From contig CP087222.1 in NCBI GenBank assembly GCA_020912385.1, forward strand, positions 248,001-312,000: DNA of 64,000 bases, read 5' to 3'. Under the pieces are notes generated by a model. The model was not told the DNA's origin, did not search any database, and saw only the letters and a list, made by a program, of their open reading frames with translations. The DNA is from Neofusicoccum parvum. Lineage: Eukaryota > Ascomycota > Dothideomycetes > Botryosphaeriales > Botryosphaeriaceae. The translations under genes and the position numbers were made by a program. Every line of letters begins with the position of its first letter. The first letter of the stretch is position 1. This document shows positions 15,884 through 25,192 of the stretch, piece by piece.

Positions 15884-16908
15884 TTACTCGGCACCAGCGT
15901 AATACGTGTCCCACTGGAACATAGCCGCTCCGAGGAAGGCGCCAATGAAGATACAGATGATGATATAGCCTACCAAACAAACAAAGCGTCAGCATCAGGC
16001 ATCCCCATTCAACCACGATCAACCACATCGCCGCCCGCGAGCCGGACAGCGGATCCAGACGGCGCGATTCGCCGCGCAGCCACCGCACCGCCGAATCACC
16101 GCCAGCCCAGCCCGCGCGCGCAATTCCGGAACAGCAGCTGCACACACAAGCGCAGAGCCTTCCTGGGTCCGGCGACGCGGTGGCGGAGCACGCGACATGG
16201 GCCGTCTCGGCGGCAGCAAGGGGGCCGGAGGACACGCGCGGGCGCCGAACTCACCGTTGTAGTACATGGCGAGCAGCATGACGAAGTAGCCGACGGCGAA
16301 CTGGACCGTGAACAGCAGCGAGCGCAGCAGGTGCTGCCACCAGCGCAGGGGGGCGACGCCAGCCGCGCCCGCGAGGCCGGCGGCGGCGGGGTGCATGGCC
16401 TTGGCGCTGGAGGCGCTGCTGCCGGCCTCAGCGGCGGCGGCGGCGGCGGGCGCGGAAGAGGCTCTGTTCGTGCGGCGGAAGTGGCGGTCGAGCTCGCGCT
16501 GGGCGCGGCGGAGGAGCTCGAGCGAGACGACGAGCAGGATCACGCCGATGCAGGAGCCGGCGAAGGCGCCGGCGCTGCGGACGTGCCAAGACCGCGCTAT
16601 GAAGCAGGAGTCGACCGTGTACCAGTTCCAGAGCATCTGGCGGCGGGGGGACGGTCAGCGGCGTGGTTGGTGGCGGGCGTGCGCGGGAAGTGGAGGAGGG
16701 CGGCAGATGGTTGAGGGGAGGAAAGACAAGGTCTTCGAGATAGGTAGAGCTGTGGTGGACTTACGGAAATTTTGCATGAGCTGCCACCACCCATGCCGCT
16801 GTGGCTCATGCTCATCCCAGTGCTTGTAGCGGAGGCCGCAGATGCGGCGGCGGTGGACGCCATGGACATGGCCATGGAGCTGGTCGACGACATTCCGGAC
16901 ATGTCCAT
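15884..16908 (-). CDS. Ctr-family high-affinity copper transporter
   Basis: Imports Cu(I) across the plasma or vacuolar membrane as a trimer. Exons are 16765-16908, 16255-16636 and 15884-15969 on the minus strand, giving 203 residues; both introns (donor GTAAGT, then GTGAGT) keep frame. The N-terminus is Met-rich with Mets motifs (MDMSGM, MAMSM, MSMSHSGM). TM1 starts at MLWNWYTVDSCFIARSW. A charged and Ala-rich cytosolic loop follows. TM2 carries the diagnostic MxxxM (GYFVMLLAMYYNG) and TM3 the GxxxG (FIGAFLGAAMF). The start is the first ATG that gives the Mets domain. Upstream, at 17221-17228, is a TGTGCTCA element like that bound by the copper-starvation factor Mac1 in fungi. The next recognisable gene is an isocyanide synthase, which makes the neighbourhood copper-suggestive. 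Confidence 0.95.
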
Positions 16909-17396
16909 GTTGGCGACGATGTGAAGTTGAAACGGAATGAAGATGGTGTCTTGACGAAAAGAAGAAGATCGGGTGAGGCTCAATACGTCAATCGACCAGT
17001 GCTTGCAAGCGCCGATCGGAAGCAGAAGCGCGGGAAGGCGGGAGCGGAAGCGGGGCACGAGACGGGACTGTTGGTGCAACCGTGGAAGGAAAAGAGGGAA
17101 ATCGAGTAAGGCAAGGACCGACGGTCAGTTATATGGGCAGCAAGCAGCTCGCTGTGACTTCTGCAGCACGATAGGCTTTTCTCGGCGCCGTGTCCAGTCA
17201 GACCAGCTCGCTAAGAACAATGTGCTCACCGCTGCGAGGGCCTCCTTCCCAATAGATGGGCCCTGGGCACGGCAGACATGCGCTGGTGATGCTGCATCAC
17301 CCATGATCCCGGATCAAGGCGATACTTGCCCGATCGGGGAAACGTGCTCAAACACGAGCGTCGGCGGAAAAGCTTGGCGCTCGGGGGCCAAGTGTC
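16909..17396. other. Upstream region of the copper transporter
   Basis: About 490 nt holding the presumed ctr promoter and 5' UTR. It contains TGTGCTCA at 17221-17228 and a one-mismatch copy (CGTGCTCA) at 17343-17350. Confidence 0.5.
17221..17228 (+). promoter_or_regulatory. Putative Mac1-type copper-response element
   Basis: The octamer TGTGCTCA lies 313 nt upstream of the Ctr start codon. Mac1-family copper-sensing activators of yeast and Aspergillus bind TTTGCTCA/TGTGCTCA-type sites in copper-uptake promoters. An octamer is expected about twice by chance in 64 kb on both strands, and another copy occurs at 54228-54235 with no copper gene nearby, so position is the main support. A related CGTGCTCA lies about 120 nt further upstream. 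Confidence 0.5.
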
Positions 17397-18293
17397 GTGT
17401 ATCTCGCAGGGCTGGAGCTGGAGCTGTGCCCCGCGGCATTTGAGCAAGTTGAACGAGCTGAGGATGCGCAGTTTTCGCTAGTTTGTATAAGAGCGGAGTT
17501 TCGAAACAGCGCGATCATGCCACAAGCTCGAAAGAACGAACACGCGGTCCTTACTCTCGCTTCTCCGCGCGGCGGCGCTCTTGTTTTCCGCCCTTGCGCC
17601 AGCGCCAGCGGCAACCCTGCCAGCGCAAGCCACCAATCAAACACGCCTGAGTATCCCGCAGCAGAGACTCCCGACGATGCACAACCGTCGGGCAGCTCGC
17701 CTCAACAACACACGACCCCATCCGTACCAGCAACCAAACTTCCCACCCACCGCGCGAAATTGAACCTAGCCGACCCTAAACAACACCACCCAGCAGTCCC
17801 ACTCCCCCAACCACGACCATCCTCCCCACCAAATTCGCCGCGCTCCTCTCCCCGACGCGCCCGCCCTCCTCTCCATTCCCCGTCGCAAGGACCCATCTCT
17901 CATCTCAACCACCGAGACCCCGGACCCGGCCAGCATGAACACGCGCAACGACACATTCGCGATCTAACCACCCACACGTTCGCCGCGGCGCCCACGGACG
18001 TCGAAGTCCCGTTCGTGCCTGGCGGTCTCGGCGCGCGGGCGACGACGAACAGAAGGACGTGGATCGGGAGCATGCTTAGGAGGGCGGAGGAGACGGGGTA
18101 CGCATGGAGGAACGAGGCCCGCGATGACCGTTTTGCGGCGCGAGCCGGCGTTTATGGGAGGGATGGAGTCACGGCGGGGAGCAGTAGGATGGAAAAGAGA
18201 TGTATGGGATTACTCGTTCGAGCTTGGAAACATCGGAAATTTGTATATCAGAAAGCCCGGACACCGCGAACTGCTACGCTAAGGAAATGCTAA
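17397..18293 (+). CDS. Possible hypothetical protein, Pro/Ser-rich then basic
   Basis: An open frame of 298 residues between the copper transporter and the isocyanide synthase. The first 180 residues are Pro/Ser/His-rich low complexity. From about residue 190 (DVEVPFVPGGLGARATTNRR, then a TWIGSMLRRAEETGYAWRNE segment) the sequence looks like an ordinary folded or helical small protein. A true start inside the frame near this part is possible. No family is recognised. Competing frames are also open because the region is GC-rich, so this may be fortuitous. If real, its position makes it a candidate accessory gene of the neighbouring cluster. Confidence 0.35.
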   Translation: MYLAGLELELCPAAFEQVERAEDAQFSLVCIRAEFRNSAIMPQARKNEHAVLTLASPRGGALVFRPCASASGNPASASHQSNTPEYPAAETPDDAQPSGSSPQQHTTPSVPATKLPTHRAKLNLADPKQHHPAVPLPQPRPSSPPNSPRSSPRRARPPLHSPSQGPISHLNHRDPGPGQHEHAQRHIRDLTTHTFAAAPTDVEVPFVPGGLGARATTNRRTWIGSMLRRAEETGYAWRNEARDDRFAARAGVYGRDGVTAGSSRMEKRCMGLLVRAWKHRKFVYQKARTPRTATLRKC

Positions 18294-18324
18294 ACGAGGA
18301 CAGGAAACGAAACAGGGAAGATTT

Positions 18325-20105
18325 TTAAGCAGAGATCCAAGTCTTGCACACCAAACCAACCCGCAGGATGCAGTCCATTGTCCACCTCATCGGCAAATAT
18401 ACGAGCGGAAGCATCTTCTCGAGCATGGGATATTGCTGAGCAAGCAGTGGCTTCTCGACCGCGCTGAGGAAAACCTCCTCCTGTGGGACAATAGGTGTCT
18501 GAGGAATCTGGACGGTCAGAGACTTGGGTGTCAAGGCGAAGTAGCCACCTTTCTCTGCGTTGTCTGTCCAGGACCCTTGGAGATAGCCCTTAGCGTTGGC
18601 GTCATATGCGGCACGAGCTTTGATCAGATACGGGACGCTCTCTCCTTCGACATATGCAAGGCAGTTGTGCCAGGGCGTTGGGGTGTGGTAGTTGTCGAGA
18701 GATTTCTGAGCATCCCTGGTTTCAAGGTCCTCAACGGCAATGGCAGTGTTGGGGCCGAGCAGGCGAACGGCAAATTTGGGGCCGGAATTATCGTGACTGT
18801 GAGGCGGCTCAGTTAGCTTGAGTTGAATACCAAGAAGAGAAGGACAACCACTTACGCATGAATGGAAAGGCGCACGTGAGAAGGGAAAAGCAACTCGACG
18901 AGGTTCGAATAGGCACAGTTGCGAACAATCATCTCGGCAGCGACATTGGACGAGATCTTCTTTCTCTTCGAAACGCTCAAACCAGCAAAAGCACGACTCT
19001 TGGACAGGTCGTCCAGCATGAATCGGGACAGTCCGCGGTAAAGTCCGAGCGTAGAGGGATCCTGGCTGGTGATCAGGCCGCGCATGATAGCCTTGTCATT
19101 TTGGCCAAGAGCCATCATCAACTTGCGACAGAGCTCTGCGTTCTCTGACCGCTCAGAGTCGATCGGGTGCGTAAGCTCGTGGCCCTCGATCCACGCCTCC
19201 TGGAAAAGCTCGGTGACTTCCTGGTTGCCGAAGAAAATTTCGGTCAAGGAAGTGAACTGGATGTTTCCGTTGCACTGCTTGCTGGACTTCATACGATAAT
19301 ACATCTGCTTCAGGGCCTCGCCGTAGATGTCAACGTTATCGTCCCTGACCTCGAGTAAGTCGGAGAATACATGTCCGTCACTGACGATGAGAACGATCGC
19401 GCCAGGAGAGTAGATGTCTCCAACCTGACGCGCGAACTCGTCCAGTGCTTTGAGAGCAAGGTATTCTGCCCGATCAGGAAGCTTGCCAGTAGTCTTCTCT
19501 GCGCTTGGCGATTTGCATGGGAATGCTGGAAGGCAGAATCGGATTGGCAGGCGACGAGTAACAAAATCGAGCGTCCGAGCCTCAAAGGTGCCGCGGCCAA
19601 CATTCCACTTGTCGTTCGGGGCGACATTGCGGAGGTATTGATCGAATACGTCAGCGATGTGAGCAGCTGTTCTCACATCCTGCTCGTCGGAAACCTGTGA
19701 TGCGGCGGGTGGCAGAAGACGAGTCTCGCAGAGCACGAACAGCTCAGACCAGGACTTGAGGTTCAATTGCTCCGATGCAGAATCGAGAGTCTTGCGACTG
19801 ATGAGGCCCAAGATGCTGTCTGAGCGGGAGGCGTCGTGGAGTTCCCGAACACAATATGTGGAGAGCTCTGTTTTGTCGGCGGAGAGGTCCAGAGAGAGTT
19901 CGGTGGTTATGATGTGCTTGTGGGATGGCAGACGGACAGTTGCGCCGGGGTTGCCTGCAGAGAGTTGTGCCCGAATCTGTGACCACGACGCAGTGATGTC
20001 CGAAGCATGGCTGCCACTTGAGGAGACCAATGTGAAGTCAGGGCGCCGCCAGTAGAATCCCTGAACACCGTGATATATCGAAGAGCCGCTGTTGAGGGAA
20101 GGCAT
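18325..20105 (-). CDS. DIT1-like: DIT1/PvcA-type isocyanide synthase
   Basis: A member of the pyoverdine/dityrosine biosynthesis family (PF05141). Relatives condense an amino acid, usually Tyr or Trp, with ribulose-5-phosphate to give an isocyanide (PvcA, IsnA, fungal xanthocillin enzymes); yeast Dit1 makes the formyl-tyrosine precursor of spore-wall dityrosine. Exons are 18856-20105 and 18325-18796; the 59-nt intron (GTAAGT...CACAG) restores SIHAHDNSGPKF, giving 573 residues, close to yeast Dit1. Family hallmarks are RRLPIRFCLPAFPCKSP (about 184), IVLIVSDGHVFSDLLEVRDD (about 237) and NCAYSNLVELLFPSHVRLSI (about 396). The C-terminal part (about 417-573) continues with WHNCLAYVEG and a short tail. 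It is divergently paired, across 1.03 kb, with a DIT2-type P450, followed by a DTR1-like exporter. The amino-acid substrate is not readable from sequence. Confidence 0.93.
18797..18855 (-). other. Intron of the isocyanide synthase gene
   Basis: GTAAGT donor and CTCACAG acceptor, 59 nt, phase 2. Removal joins two strongly family-like halves in frame. Confidence 0.85.
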
Positions 20106-21137
20106 TGTGCTGAGTAACGAGGAGAAAATCGGGTAAATAATTAGAAGTTAGGGCAAATTATGAGACGAAGCTCAAAGAAAGGGTTGATACCAGCAAGGAT
20201 GAGAAGTCGAGCTTCACTGGATAGGGGAAAGGATGGTAATGGAAACTTGGATGGTTGGGCTCGATGCTGGAACGTTGCTCCCTCTTATGAGGCAGTTATG
20301 ACGCCTCTCCAATCTCTGCCGTCTTGGTAAAGGAACACATCAGCGTGGGGTTCCCACGGCTGTGTAGTTGTTCAGCTGCGGAGGCTTCAGAAGCCACAAG
20401 TGGAGGAAGTGAGAGAGTCACAAGGCTCGGGTCAGCCGAAGCGTCAAAAAAAGCGCAAATAGACCGACTCTGTGCATGCCGAGACAGCGCAGCGCGGGCT
20501 CGTTGGTGGTATTTTCCAGGCAATGGTCCGTCCGAATGCCAAGCGATACCTCAGCCTCCAGATCCAGGGTCAGATACGCCAACGCGGTTTGGGGAATACA
20601 TTAATTGACACGAGTCAGCTTGCAGAGTCCCGAGGCCGTGGTGGCGAAGTTCACAGGGGCTGGGGTTGAGGCGGTCGGCACGATCTGCATTAGCCTTGCA
20701 TAATCAGTTCCTTGATGTTGGACGAGCTAAATTTACCGTTACCCGATGCAAGTGAAGGCCGCAGTAGCGCAGGTGCAATAGGGTGCTGCGGAGCGCCCGC
20801 CATGCGCCGCTTCCAATGCCTGCCGCGGCAGCCACACAACGTCGTCAGCTTATAGGGTGGAGAACAGACAGCCCAGCTACTTGTCCCCGTGGGCCTAATC
20901 GCCAAGTACCTGACTACTCGTAGGATCGTTCGGTTCCATTGAAGGCAACGTTGCGCCATCTGCTATCGTCAGCACGGGTACGGATGCGGACGCGCGACTC
21001 GCTGCGCCGCCAGCCTAAGGAACACCACGCTCAATCCCTGACCACTATCAGCTTGGCGCGCTTGGCCGAACGGCCTCGGACATATCAGGCATACGACGGA
21101 CATCGAGCATCTCGCACCGACGGATTCCAACCGCAAA
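20106..21137. promoter_or_regulatory. Bidirectional promoter of the synthase/P450 pair
   Basis: A 1.03-kb gap between the divergent start codons of the isocyanide synthase and the P450, suited to co-regulation. No ORF of value lies in it. I found no exact TGTGCTCA here; TGTGCTGA at 20106-20113, abutting the synthase start, is only a 7-of-8 match and weak. Confidence 0.5.
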
Positions 21138-22730
21138 ATGTCTTTCAATTTCCTTCTCATCGGCTTCGTTGTCGTGGCCGGTCTGGCCATTGGAGCTGCT
21201 GTCACCTTCCTTCTCCCGCCGAGCAACTTTCCCAAAAACATTCCAACAATCCCTTTCTACTACACGCTACTTCCTCTTTTCAGAGACTGCGATCAGGAGA
21301 CTCTGTACCGCGAGTACTTGGAGCGGCCACTAAAGCAATACGGCGCAGTCAAAATATTCTTTGCATCCCGATGGAATGTCCTGGTTCAGCGCCCAGAATT
21401 TATCCAGGAAGTCTTCAAGAATGAAGATCTGTACGCTAAGAGCGGGAACCAAAAGAAGATTCCGTACAGCGTGATCGCGGATTATACAGGCGACAACATC
21501 ATCTCCGCTCATGGAGCCGATTGGCGCTTGTACCGGTCCGTCGTTGCTCCTGGCCTTCAACGAGACTTCGATCCTGAGCCGGTGCTTCGCAATGCTCATC
21601 TTCTTGCCAGCCTCTTCGCCGAGCAGCAAAAGAAATCCGGGCGGAGTGGTTTTGTGGTCCTCCCTTTCCTGCAAAGACTCTCTCTTGAGAATGTAGCGCA
21701 AAGCCTTCTTGGCACCTGCTTCGGGGTACGAAGGCCTGTTTACCTCTCGGAAACCCTTACTGACTTTTCTCAGACTCTAGAGAGCCCTCAGGCGCCAATG
21801 CACCAAATGCAGATGGTTGTCAAGCGCGAGATCTTCAAGCCCTTGTTCTTGAACTTCCCCTTCCTCGACCGCTTCCCCATTCCCAGCCGGCAGCGGGCAC
21901 GCCAACTCGTGGATGAATTCGCCACTCAGCTTTGCAACAAAGTGTTGGAGAGCCACCAGCATTCGCACGAAGAGAAGATGGCGAATGTTTCTGCGGGCTG
22001 CCATTTGGTGCAGGCGTACAAAGCTGGACTACTCACCGAGACGCAGTTCCGCCACAATGTGTCCATCATCCTCATCGCCGGGCACGAAAATCCACAGCTT
22101 CTTTTCCAATCACTCCTCTTCCTCCTTGGCCAACACCAGGACATCCAGAAGCGAGTGCGCGAAGAAGTCAAATCTGCCAGAGACGGAGGAGCGTCGGCAA
22201 TCCTGAACCTGCCATATCTCATGGCCGTGGTCTACGAGACGCTCCGCATGTACCCGCCAATCTCGCAGCTCATCAACCGCCGCACGACGGCGCCGACGGT
22301 GCTCGGCGGCTCGATCGCGCTGCCAGCAGACATCTACGTCGGCTACAACGGCTACGCAACCGGGCACGACCGCAGCTTCTGGGGCTCGGACGCGGACGCG
22401 TTCAGGCCGGAGCGATGGGGGGCGACGATGGAGGAGGTCAACGCGACGTTCCGCACGGCGAACCGCAAGGGCGGGTTCATCGCGTTCCACGGCGGCAGGC
22501 GGGCGTGCCTGGGGCAGCGGTTCGCGATGCTCGAGGCGCGGCTGACGGTGGCGGTGCTGGTCGAGAGGCTGGCCTGGCGGGTCGACCCTGCGTGGCGGCC
22601 GCGGATGACACCCGTGAGTATCGCTCTGGCTGTGGCTAGGCGCTTCCTGCCGGATCGGCGTGCTGACGTGGTGCAACAGGCGGGTCCCCTGAGCCCGATG
22701 CTTCTCCGGCTGCTCGTTGAGGAGGCCTGA
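21138..22730 (+). CDS. DIT2-like: DIT2-type cytochrome P450
   Basis: A P450 predicted to oxidise or couple the product of the adjacent isocyanide synthase, as yeast Dit2 (CYP56) couples formyl-tyrosine. An N-terminal anchor (about 5-26) places it on the ER. Visible motifs are HGADWRLYR (C-helix), ETLR (ExxR, 367), FRPERW (PERF) and the haem loop AFHGGRRACLGQRFA with Cys457. The I-helix reads IAGHENPQ: Asn-Pro replaces the usual Thr-Thr/Ser of the oxygen-activating groove, suggesting specialised chemistry such as oxidative coupling. The frame is open for 530 codons, but a GTGAGT...CAACAG intron of 66 nt (22614-22679, with GCTGAC branch-like box) is very likely removed, joining RMTP to AGPLSPMLLRL and giving 508 residues. 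It is divergent from the synthase and in line with the MFS gene. Confidence 0.93.
   Translation: MSFNFLLIGFVVVAGLAIGAAVTFLLPPSNFPKNIPTIPFYYTLLPLFRDCDQETLYREYLERPLKQYGAVKIFFASRWNVLVQRPEFIQEVFKNEDLYAKSGNQKKIPYSVIADYTGDNIISAHGADWRLYRSVVAPGLQRDFDPEPVLRNAHLLASLFAEQQKKSGRSGFVVLPFLQRLSLENVAQSLLGTCFGVRRPVYLSETLTDFSQTLESPQAPMHQMQMVVKREIFKPLFLNFPFLDRFPIPSRQRARQLVDEFATQLCNKVLESHQHSHEEKMANVSAGCHLVQAYKAGLLTETQFRHNVSIILIAGHENPQLLFQSLLFLLGQHQDIQKRVREEVKSARDGGASAILNLPYLMAVVYETLRMYPPISQLINRRTTAPTVLGGSIALPADIYVGYNGYATGHDRSFWGSDADAFRPERWGATMEEVNATFRTANRKGGFIAFHGGRRACLGQRFAMLEARLTVAVLVERLAWRVDPAWRPRMTPVSIALAVARRFLPDRRADVVQQAGPLSPMLLRLLVEEA
22614..22679 (+). other. Likely in-frame (3n) intron in the DIT2-type P450
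   Basis: GTGAGT donor, GCTGAC branch-like box and CAACAG acceptor, length 66. Because the length is divisible by three without a stop, retention would add 22 residues near the C-terminus rather than truncate the protein. Confidence 0.7.
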
Positions 22731-23473
22731 TCGGTTGGACGGGGTGGCATGGGATAACGAGACTGGCGTGGCAGGCGCGGTGACGGCGAGTCGAGAGGGA
22801 CTGTAGATTGTTTAGGCGTTTCGGGAGATTACATAGTCGACGTACTTTAATGGCAAGCGAGCACCGCTAGCACGACTCGGCGCTACGCAACTCTATCTGC
22901 AACGCGCAGAGTGTGTCTCACTGCTGCGAGATGAGATTGCGGGCAGATCTTGGTCCCTTGGTGTTTTGCGCGACTCTCCAGCCCATCCCTGCCGTCCCGC
23001 ACTCGCCTTCCGGAGGCGGTGAATGCCAGCGGAGCCCTACGTCGTAGCACGGCACCTCACCCTGGGGCCGCGGGCGCTCCGCCCTGACTCGGGTGCCAAG
23101 GTCTGCGGCTGACGAGGCGCACATGGCTGCCTGCCCTGCCTGCCTCTTTGTCCGACCCGCATCTTGGCCTGCATGCTCTCTGCGCGCCCTCACGCCGTAC
23201 CCGCTCATGTCACCCGGAGTCTGCGCCGCATGTGCTTACCCCAGGCGCAGCGCAAGATCCAGAGCGGGTCCCGCCGAGATGCTAGCGCGCATTATTTTGG
23301 TCAAGCTGACCACTGCACGCACTGCGGCTCGAGGCCGTTTGCGCCCGTTTCCGCCGTGGTCCTTGTTGGGCTGCCTCCGCGCAGTGCGAACCACCATCTG
23401 ATATGAATGATACACCGTTCCCTGACTTCTCCCATCATACCACTCCCCAATCTCCCACCATCTGTTCACCGAG
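22731..23473. other. Intergenic region and MFS promoter
   Basis: About 740 nt between the P450 stop and the exporter start in the same orientation. Pyrimidine-rich close to the exporter ATG. No gene is supported. Confidence 0.5.
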
Positions 23474-25192
23474 ATGGACAGTGCCGAAAAGAAGCAGGAC
23501 GCTCCGCTGGAGGCCGTCCGCGCCGCCTCTCCCAGCGTGCCGCCGCCCTACTCGGCTTTCTCAGTAACTACCCGGCGATTCATTCTCTTTCTTGTCACCA
23601 CAGCAGGCTTCCTCGGCCCCCTCTGTGGCGCTATTTACCTGCCCTCACTTCCCCTTTTCGAGGACATCTTTGACACATCGACTACCGGCATCAATGCCTC
23701 CGTTACCCTGTACATGGTGGTCTTCGCCATCACAGTCAGTCCCCTCTCTCCCGCTCCGACCGACCTCCAGACTGATCTCCTGCAGCCACTTTTCTGGGCC
23801 GCTGCCGCCGACCATTGGGGGCGACGACCTGTCTATACCGTCTCACTGGCCATCTTCATCATCTCCAACGTGCTGCTTGCTGCCGTCCCGGCAAACGTCG
23901 CGGCACTGTTCATCCTCCGCATCCTGCAGGCCCTTGGCTCCAGCGCAGTGGCTTCCGTAGGTGCAGGCACCGTTGCTGACATCACCGAACCCAAGAACCG
24001 CGCCTCTGCCATGTCCATCTTCCTTCTAGGTCCCCACATGGGGCCGATTCTTGGTCCACTTATTGGTGGACAATTTGCTGCGCCCTCGAGGTGGAGGTGG
24101 GCGTTCGGCTTCCTCGGTATGCTGGCTCCTCAATCGTCCTCGACTTCCCCCTCAACCGATCCCGTGCTGACCTGACCATTGCCACGCAGCCATCGCGTGC
24201 CTTCCGATCTACGCCGCCATCCAGCTGTGGCTGCCGGAGACGCTGAGGACCCTGGTCGGCAACGGCGAGAGCCAGTCGCACTACGGCCTCTGGAAGATCC
24301 AGCCCTTCAGGCAGAAGAACAAGGATGGCAAGGTCCCGACCCAGCCGTCCCGCGTCCGCGTGTTCTGGGCCTTGCTCGTGTACCCTCCCAACCTCATCAT
24401 CATCACCAGCACCGCCCTCCTCTTCGCCGGCCTGTACGCCATCCTGGTCGACTTCACCCGCCTCTGGCTGGAGCAGTACGGCTGGTCCGAGGCCGAGGCC
24501 GGCTACGCGTACCTCTGTCCCGGTAAGCGTTCCACCGCAGCACACCCGCCGCTCTCCGCTAACGCATCGCTCACCAGGCATCTTCCTCTTCGTCGGCTCT
24601 CTCGCCGGCGGCAAGGTGTCCGACCTGTGGCGAGCCCGAGCCGTGAAGGCCAGCCCGGACGGGAAGGTCCCCCCCGAGAGCCGGATCTTCCTCCAGATCA
24701 TCGGGTACATCGCCACCGCCATCGGGCTGATCATGTTCGGCTGGTTCTGCCAGCACAAGCTGCACCCCGCTCTGGTCCTTTTTGCCTCCGCTGTTGGTAC
24801 GTCAGACTCCCTCCCTCCTCCTCCTTCTCCTCCTCCTCCTCCTCCTCCTCATCCTCCCCCGCTAACCCCACGCAGCCGGCTTCGGCATGTCCTGGGTGCT
24901 CGTCACGAGCACCAGCTACCTGACCGAGTCGTCGCCGCCGCACGCCGCCCGCATGGTCGCGCTCGCCGGCCTGCTGCGCAACGTCGGCGCCGCCGTCGCC
25001 GCCGCCGTCGTCCACCCGCTGATCGAGGCCATGGGCTACGGCTGGTGCTACACCGGCCTGGCCTTCCTGGTCCTGGCCTGCATCTCCGGCGTCGTGTATC
25101 TCAAATTCACCGGCAAGACGTACAGGGCCCAGCTGCAGGGAAGGCTCAAGGCCGCGACGGCGGGGCCGGGGAGGAAGATGGAGGCTGTGTAG
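23474..25192 (+). CDS. DTR1-like: MFS exporter, DHA1/DTR1-like
   Basis: A 12-helix drug:proton antiporter-type MFS protein, 486 residues from five exons (23474-23734, 23786-24116, 24190-24522, 24578-24796, 24876-25192); all four introns restore frame. TM1 carries FLGPLCGAIYLPSLPLFEDI; motif A appears as DHWGRRPVYT after TM2; the antiporter motif C region is LLGPHMGPILGPLIGGQF. The N-terminus is short and cytosolic. In yeast, DTR1 exports the dityrosine precursor made by Dit1/Dit2, and homologous MFS genes accompany isocyanide synthases in filamentous fungi. Its position beside such a pair predicts export of their product or self-protection from it. Intron 1 is 51 nt (3n) with a GTCAGT donor; intron 4 contains a CTC/TCC trinucleotide run. 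Confidence 0.92.
24818..24856 (+). repeat. Pyrimidine trinucleotide repeat in exporter intron 4
   Basis: A run of CTC/CCT triplets fills much of the 79-nt intron. Such polypyrimidine stretches lie upstream of acceptors but are slippage-prone. Confidence 0.7.

Follow-up and report, generated by a model that had tools for sequence, protein, structure and literature searches.

Does a dit-type gene set lying beside a copper importer gene in Neofusicoccum parvum make an exported, copper-binding isocyanide, or does it make a wall precursor and have the importer as a neighbor? We addressed this question from the gene models, the phylogeny of the synthase, the linkage of dit1 and ctr in other fungi, and promoter motifs.

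A dit-type gene set beside a copper importer gene

The window, meaning the whole 64,000-nt stretch of DNA that was analyzed, carries four genes together (Table 1), all in the places and order given by an initial annotation, whose gene anatomy is right. The ctr gene and the PF05141 synthase gene are on the same strand, with 1,416 bp from the ctr start to the synthase stop. The synthase and P450 genes are divergently transcribed, as in the dit superfamily, and the MFS gene follows the P450 gene on the same strand. In Pfam, the spliced Ctr model matches PF04145 (E 1.5e-44), the first exon of the synthase, a single ORF, matches PF05141 (DIT1_PvcA, E 1.7e-71), the single P450 ORF matches PF00067 (p450, E 1.8e-55), and the spliced MFS model matches PF07690 (MFS_1, E 1.8e-54), the second MFS ORF in one reading frame being without a Pfam match. 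No Rfam family matched at gathering scores anywhere in the window.

Table 1. Features of the dit-type locus and the adjacent ctr gene, in window coordinates
Feature	Position	Strand	Details
ctr, copper importer, Ctr3/Ctr4 type	15884..16908	-	203 aa; 3 exons: 16908-16765, 16636-16255, 15969-15884
Three Mac1-type TGCTCA sites upstream of ctr	17220..17449	.	ATGTGCTCA (17220,+), ACGTGCTCA (17342,+), ACTTGCTCA (17441,-)
dit1-type PF05141 synthase	18325..20105	-	573 aa; 2 exons: 20105-18856, 18796-18325
Shared divergent promoter region, synthase/P450	20106..21137	.	without TGCTCA
dit2-type cytochrome P450	21138..22730	+	530 aa; intronless
MFS promoter region	22731..23473	.	without TGCTCA
MFS exporter, candidate Dtr1-like	23474..25192	+	486 aa; 5 exons: 23474-23734, 23786-24116, 24190-24522, 24578-24796, 24876-25192

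Besides PF04145, the Ctr protein has three hydrophobic segments and the MxxxM and GxxxG motifs, and it matches N. ribis "Ctr4" at 95% over 76% of the query. Splicing of the synthase is sound, because a 573-aa N. ribis protein matches 100% of it at 98%. The 120 Dit1 homologues listed show at least 93% conservation at 84 positions, and the window synthase has the conserved residue at 83 of these. The P450, a candidate CYP56, contains FHGGRRACLG, ETLR, and the threonine-free I-helix motif AGHENP, and scores 1207.7 bits against itself in its own genome, where the next best place reaches 74.3 bits (31%). Ten hydrophobic segments were detected in the MFS protein. Judging from where their genes lie, the families they belong to, and the absence of close paralogues, the P450 and the MFS protein are candidate orthologues of Dit2 and Dtr1.

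The three genes match the dit superfamily as published, which is described as defined by the divergent synthase/P450 pair, with yeast DIT1/DIT2 and, in Pezizomycotina, clans 2 and 3; the pair is common to the clans, and an MFS gene occurs in clan 3, that of the Dothideomycetes (PMC10153163). Aspergillus nidulans is likewise described with ditA and CYP56B1 (PMC5863032). The window likewise has a single-domain PF05141 synthase grouping with Dit1, a divergent P450, and an MFS neighbor as in clan 3, but differs in having ctr on the synthase side. According to PMC10153163, dit has no known metal association, and "ctr" and "PF04145" have 0 occurrences in its main text. The initial annotation had considered the minimal composition of the locus to differ from larger clusters, which holds for comparison with A. 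fumigatus xan and crm only and not with the dit superfamily, since the divergent pair is what defines it. The xan (xanthocillin) cluster also has a PF05141 enzyme and a P450, XanG, which is reported as homologous to Dit2, but is described with an ICS-dioxygenase enzyme, a hydratase, a methyltransferase, and no predicted transporter (PMC5974471). The crm cluster likewise has a PF05141 enzyme near a Ctr copper importer, crmD, but is reported to contain an ICS-NRPS enzyme and no Dit-type pair, with all four genes copper-regulated (PMC5974471, PMC9381783). By our own reading of 27 matches, the genome holds 11 PF05141 genes and two remnants, and among these loci a Ctr neighbor occurs only at the one described here; 8 matches were read as five Ctr loci.

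Phylogeny places the window synthase in the Dit1 clade. In a tree that held no named yeast Dit1 or XanB, 26 Dit1 entries, the window synthase included, lie on one side of a branch (88/92), and the ten other PF05141 synthases of the genome stand apart from them at 100/99. Of the two placements named by the initial annotation, the Dit1 clade and the xanthocillin clade, the grouping is with Dit1. The build of the synthase, with PF05141 as the sole family found in the first exon and 573 aa in total, is neither ICS-NRPS nor ICS-dioxygenase. The tree included 12 bacterial relatives; 98 relatives were detected when bacterial and archaeal genomes were scanned, of which 80 were kept, all from bacterial records judging by their titles. 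Among viral contigs scanned with N. ribis Dit1 one stretch fits a pattern and none encodes a relative. Within a 13-entry subclade (97/99), the window synthase is joined by P0010 of Coccidioides posadasii, which is named "dityrosine synthesis enzyme" and is presumably the DIT1 studied in PMC12077801. Among relatives with a studied function, the closest in this tree belongs to a six-gene Coccidioides cluster, whose core genes DIT1, DIT2, and DTR1 correspond in kind to the three here; deletion of these three gave thinner arthroconidial walls (PMC12077801). It differs in its other three genes, which are unnamed in that description, one being labelled cutinase, and no ctr is named there.

Linkage of dit1 and ctr in other fungi

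The initial annotation proposed to check whether ctr is linked to the synthase in relatives, and within the Dit1 and Ctr lists compared this linkage is supported. Among the matches listed, Dit1 and Ctr lie on contigs of equal size, from which a shared contig was inferred, in 11/17 species present in both lists, while 6/17 have no contig common to the two; the lists comprise the best 120 rows, give the longest contig alone for multi-member clusters, and were compared by eye. The Collariella gene model fuses dit1 and then ctr as one protein, with order and strand as in the window. Since Collariella belongs to the Sordariomycetes and the window to the Dothideomycetes, the linkage occurs in two fungal classes. 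Among species outside Neofusicoccum whose listed Dit1 contigs sum to less than 500 kb, 4/5 share a contig with Ctr (chance 1.5e-6, assuming five Ctr genes per genome). In Zalerion, both are on a contig of 47,547, and its Ctr looks on visual comparison like Chaetomium P0139/P0141, another Ctr lineage. In a quickly built Ctr tree of 63 of the 131 prepared rows, with the genome's other Ctr genes left out, linked Ctr proteins fall into several lineages and not one, and a label test of linked versus unlinked rows was not significant (83/500 shuffles as low). Within the limits set by long contigs, several Ctr lineages, and best-120 lists, these data suggest that a copper importer gene lies beside dit-type sets more often than expected by chance.

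One alternative is that ctr is a neutral neighbor, two unrelated genes being close by rearrangement or retention. On the several shared contigs that are megabases long, mesosynteny would hold genes together even in the absence of selection; the species sharing no contig, the several lineages of linked Ctr proteins, Zalerion's included, and the separate promoter marks described below also fit. We nevertheless consider neutrality unlikely, although it survives best among the alternatives: dit1 and ctr are adjacent in the same order and strand in Collariella and the window, and the sharing on short contigs far exceeds chance.

The linkage across species is what is new here, the cluster itself being of a known kind. 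In the parts of the literature covered, on copper transporters in connection with dit, dityrosine, or isocyanide, we found no report of it. One Mycosphaerella paper, in the passages covered, describes a PF05141-like gene as part of a cluster, mentions a copper transporter separately, and states no link; the texts of copper studies of Podospora, Pseudogymnoascus, and Fusarium contain neither dityrosine nor pyoverdine.

Promoter motifs and the isocyanide alternative

As many TGCTCA sites as the ctr promoter contains are held by only 0.8 to 1.0% of the window's 600-bp stretches. Other ctr genes of the genome have 5 (C3), 1 (C13), and 2 (C2) in 600 bp, C16 being outside the test, and the longer site form known from A. 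fumigatus is absent from the C3 control. Conversely, TGCTCA is absent from the 1,032 bp that separate the synthase from the P450 gene and from the 743 bp before the MFS gene, and no 7–10 base words are common to the three promoters beyond chance. Because TGCTCA is found at the ctr promoter and at neither dit promoter, one copper program is disfavored, and ctr looks separately copper-regulated from the dit genes; the initial annotation's idea of a shared copper-starvation program thus fails the motif test.

This bears on the proposal made there, that the locus makes an exported copper-binding isocyanide with ctr in the same program. A. fumigatus crm, with crmD (a CtrA1 copper transporter), would be a parallel. 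In favor are the chemistry of PF05141 enzymes, the recurrence of linked ctr in both classes, the MFS exporter, and the crm precedent, in which crmD is reported as copper-coregulated although little conserved in distant species (PMC9381783, PMC5974471). It is not supported, however, and we consider it improbable: besides the motif distribution, the synthase groups with Dit1 and not with the genome's other synthases, loss of yeast Dit1 is reported not to be rescued by the isocyanide synthase PvcA (PMC7345447), and in Coccidioides it is the conidial wall that the cluster affects (PMC12077801). The 16 Mac1-dependent F. oxysporum genes in the published table comprise two from crm but no gene with a dit name, which would count only if that species carries dit genes. 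Least credible is that matching contigs by size has produced a spurious linkage count, for although the by-eye comparison of best-120 lists, the longest-contig rule, and a Coniothyrium match made on the Ctr side by size alone leave room for it, species names also agree in 10/11 matches and the Collariella case is independent of contig sizes.

A probable wall-precursor cluster with a recurrent copper importer

We infer that the locus is probably a wall-precursor cluster of the dit superfamily, with ctr as a recurrently linked, separately Mac1-type-regulated neighbor. The synthase would convert tyrosine to formyl-tyrosine, directly or via an isocyanide, the P450 would couple two formyl-tyrosines via their phenol rings, and export of the dimer by the MFS protein would precede its incorporation into the wall of spores or conidia. 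Next to these genes, ctr would be a copper importer gene of Mac1 type that recurs beside dit1 and has a promoter of its own. What we observed is the gene content, the grouping with Dit1, the linkage elsewhere among fungi, and the distribution of motifs; the chemistry in N. parvum, a role in the wall, and a benefit from linkage are inferred. Why ctr stays is a guess: it may bring copper into the very cells that form spores, where oxidases acting on wall and pigment need it.

Several observations count against this model of wall synthesis with linked ctr. The Coccidioides cluster, as described, is without a named ctr; F. oxysporum ctr3 is reported as paired with the reductase gene fre9; linked Ctr proteins are not one lineage; and the promoters share no words beyond chance, with the longer A. 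fumigatus site form lacking at C3.

A bolder and rather doubtful possibility is that mould dit clusters form a third copper-linked PF05141 class, in which a dit1-dit2-ctr unit was kept or repeatedly rebuilt in Dothideomycetes and Sordariomycetes; in such a class, the product made from tyrosine would handle copper, or else the formation of spore walls would be coupled to copper uptake. Should linkage of dit1 and ctr prove as common as our data suggest, it would give a concrete reason to ask about copper in the mould dit pathway.

Gene set and synthase placement

The initial annotation described a set of copper transporter (ctr), PF05141 synthase, P450 and MFS exporter genes, and models built for all four confirm that it is real and complete. 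The window lies on contig C17 of a 44-Mb, 18-contig genome. The synthase stop is 1,416 bp from the ctr start, and a 1,032-bp gap separates the synthase from the divergently transcribed P450.

Features of the window, in plus-strand order, and of other PF05141 loci of the same genome
Feature	Location	Strand	Product	Gene model
ctr	window:15884-16908	-	203 aa, three exons	complete
PF05141 synthase	window:18325-20105	-	573 aa, two exons	complete
P450	window:21138-22730	+	530 aa, intronless	complete
MFS	window:23474-25192	+	486 aa, five exons	complete
Fungal rhodopsin-domain ORF, further along	window:34226-35278
Homeobox_KN ORF, further along	window:43483-44544
Divergent PF05141 pair L011	C1:2214000-2223999
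Divergent PF05141 pair L013	C6:2518000-2527999
Multicopper oxidase ORF (C15)	L009:2170-3147
Multicopper oxidase ORF (C2)	L010:1429-3219
PF05141 remnant, in-frame stops	C18:141264-141695
PF05141 remnant, in-frame stops	C18:124928-125227

The cluster is of an already known kind, the dit (dityrosine) type. In the account of Nickles et al., a divergent synthase/P450 pair defines the dit superfamily, is present in as many as 30% of Ascomycetes, either co-localised or fragmented, and in clan 3, chiefly Dothideomycetes, is accompanied by an MFS gene (PMC10153163); the window has both the pair and the MFS gene, and that paper's clan drawings may already include a Ctr gene. The I-helix of the P450 reads AGHENP, and threonine is present there in all six alignable helices among nine other P450 loci of the genome (e.g., AGHETT, AGSDST, AGRDTT).

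Phylogeny places the synthase on the Dit1 side rather than with a xanthocillin-type clade, in a tree that combines the window synthase with 25 listed Dit1 homologues, ten paralogues from the same genome and 12 bacterial relatives and includes no named XanB or yeast Dit1. The window synthase and Dit1 rows (26 in all) share one side of a branch (88/92), a split recovered by 92% of the 200 bootstrap trees; the ten paralogues are all set apart from them (100/99). The 13-row subclade (97/99) that contains the window synthase also includes a "dityrosine synthesis enzyme" from Coccidioides posadasii. The window synthase is 98% identical over 100% to a Neofusicoccum ribis protein (Botryosphaeriales, Dothideomycetes), which places the genome in or near Neofusicoccum. 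At positions conserved in at least 93% of the best 120 of 468 Dit1 homologues, the synthase agrees at 83/84. In published work, the Coccidioides cluster with DIT1, DIT2 and DTR1 is highly expressed in spores, and loss of all three genes thins the arthroconidial wall (PMC12077801); the yeast Dit1 product is most likely formyl tyrosine, and the isocyanide synthase PvcA reportedly cannot replace yeast Dit1 (PMC7345447), while Nickles et al. nonetheless class Dit1 as an isocyanide synthase (PMC10153163).

By our reading of 27 matches, the genome contains 11 PF05141 genes and two remnants, the one at 124928-125227 having an RNase H ORF at ~1.3 kb or less. The pairs L011 and L013 each adjoin a long adenylation-carrier-reductase ORF (AMP-binding, PP-binding, NAD_binding_4; 940 and 943 aa), and each member's nearest kin lies in the other pair; C5 carries a tandem pair. 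Multicopper oxidase ORFs lie within a few kb of PF05141 genes on C15 and C2, and copper enzymes therefore adjoin other synthases of this genome. Among database homologues, five long Dit1 proteins (P0104, P0098, P0101, P0117, P0118; 774–810 aa), one from the yeast Magnusiomyces, carry a C-terminal part resembling DJ-1/PfpI, the family of isocyanide hydratases. PF01965 is called there in P0104, falls below cut-off in P0101 and P0117 and is not found in P0118, while P0098 has an FtrA-type match; the usual catalytic cysteine appears by eye to be absent.

Recurrence of the dit1-Ctr neighbourhood

Linkage was surveyed in three protein-database lists that give the size of the longest contig: the best 120 of 468 Dit1 homologues, the best 120 of 1,535 homologues of the window Ctr, and 26 long proteins with a Ctr part. 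Lists were matched by eye using named rows, with equal contig size taken as linkage; Coniothyrium glycines, whose name was cut, was recognised on the Ctr side solely by this equality. Among the matches listed, 17 species are shared between the Dit1 list and one or both Ctr lists, and 11/17 have both genes on equal-sized contigs: Zalerion (47,547), Lophiostoma (60,948), N. ribis (111,686), Diplodia corticola (270,267), Coniothyrium (316,598), Whalleya (994,090), Paraphoma (1,832,212), Lentithecium (2,054,010), Hypoxylon trugodes (2,144,569), Lindgomyces (3,533,513) and Zopfia (5,791,380). No equal-sized pair was found among the matches listed for Diplodia seriata, Xylona, Hypoxylon sp. FL0890, Hypomontagnella monticulosa, Rhypophila or Colletotrichum truncatum. 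Some of these may be undecidable, since D. seriata rows apparently stem from several assemblies, Rhypophila contigs are only about 50 kb, and further Ctr copies may fall outside the best 120 of 1,535.

Assuming independent species, which these are not, chance predicts 4.1 matches with a 35-Mb genome and five Ctr genes each (P = 1.6e-5), or 1.4 from the listed Ctr rows alone (P = 3e-11). On the same assumption and in the same order of models, linkage is 9/14 without N. ribis, D. seriata and Coniothyrium (P = 3e-4 and 4e-9) and 10/16 without Zalerion (P = 2e-4 and 7e-10). Long Dothideomycetes contigs tend to retain their gene sets (mesosynteny). For Dit1 contigs totalling <500 kb, linkage is 4/5 without N. 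ribis (P = 1.5e-6 and 2.5e-9) and 3/4 without Coniothyrium as well (P = 3e-5 and 2.6e-7).

Direct adjacency is seen in Collariella (Sordariales, Sordariomycetes), where P0119, a 740-aa database protein named "cytochrome P450-dit2", joins PF05141 (137–446) to Ctr (572–690). Whether merged gene model or real fusion, it shows dit1 followed immediately by ctr on one strand, the arrangement found in the window. Ctr joins are not rare per se, since many other long Ctr proteins also combine Ctr with unrelated families; PF05141 occurs in 1/26, P0119 only.

A rapidly built 63-row Ctr tree shows no clustering of linked rows beyond chance (83/500 shuffles as low), and the Zalerion Ctr resembles by eye Chaetomium P0139 and P0141, which stand apart there on a long branch. 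These results therefore show a recurrent neighbourhood and do not demonstrate one inherited pair.

In the same tree, the Botryosphaeriaceae Ctr clade, including the window Ctr, groups with polypore (Basidiomycota) Ctr (96 SH-aLRT; three included, P0153, P0154 and P0136), nearer than to Pleosporales Ctr. Listed identities of polypore P0153–P0156, P0158 and P0136 are 62–69%. This grouping hints at possible gene transfer among wood-dwelling fungi. P0136, from Ganoderma boninense, combines a window-type Ctr (63% over 172 aa) and DJ-1/PfpI (PF01965) in one gene model.

Copper motifs and the likely product

The proposal that all these genes share one copper-starvation programme fits the motif counts poorly. 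Reported binding sequences are TGTGCTCA for Aspergillus fumigatus MacA (PMC6514546) and DHNTGCTCANNN for Fusarium oxysporum Mac1 (PMC11563359). Three DHNTGCTCA sites lie within 600 bp upstream of the window ctr, as many as in 0.8% of the window's 600-bp stretches, whereas the 1,032-bp synthase/P450 intergenic region and the 743 bp upstream of the MFS gene contain no TGCTCA. The exact MacA form occurs once upstream of ctr and three times in the entire window; it was not found in 1 kb upstream of the C3 ctr. Other ctr genes of the genome, taken as controls, have five (C3), one (C13) and two (C2) TGCTCA in 600 bp upstream (C16 left out), and each of the ten other synthase genes has 0 or 1 within 1 kb of its domain. 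Copper-starvation regulon marks are therefore on ctr and not on the dit genes, although genes that lack the motif may still be regulated.

An exported copper-binding isocyanide, as initially proposed, is a possible though less likely product of the cluster. The A. fumigatus isocyanide cluster crm sets a precedent for PF05141 and Ctr genes side by side: its crmD is a CtrA1 transporter and all four of its genes respond to copper, though crmD is reportedly little conserved in distant species (PMC9381783, PMC5974471). The dit1-Ctr neighbourhood recurs in two classes, but the window's biosynthetic genes lack the copper-regulation marks. The evidence best supports a dit-type pathway that makes a tyrosine-derived component of the wall, next to a copper importer that is linked but separately controlled. 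Such an importer beside the dit cluster would supply copper to spore-forming cells, which is our guess as to why the arrangement persists.
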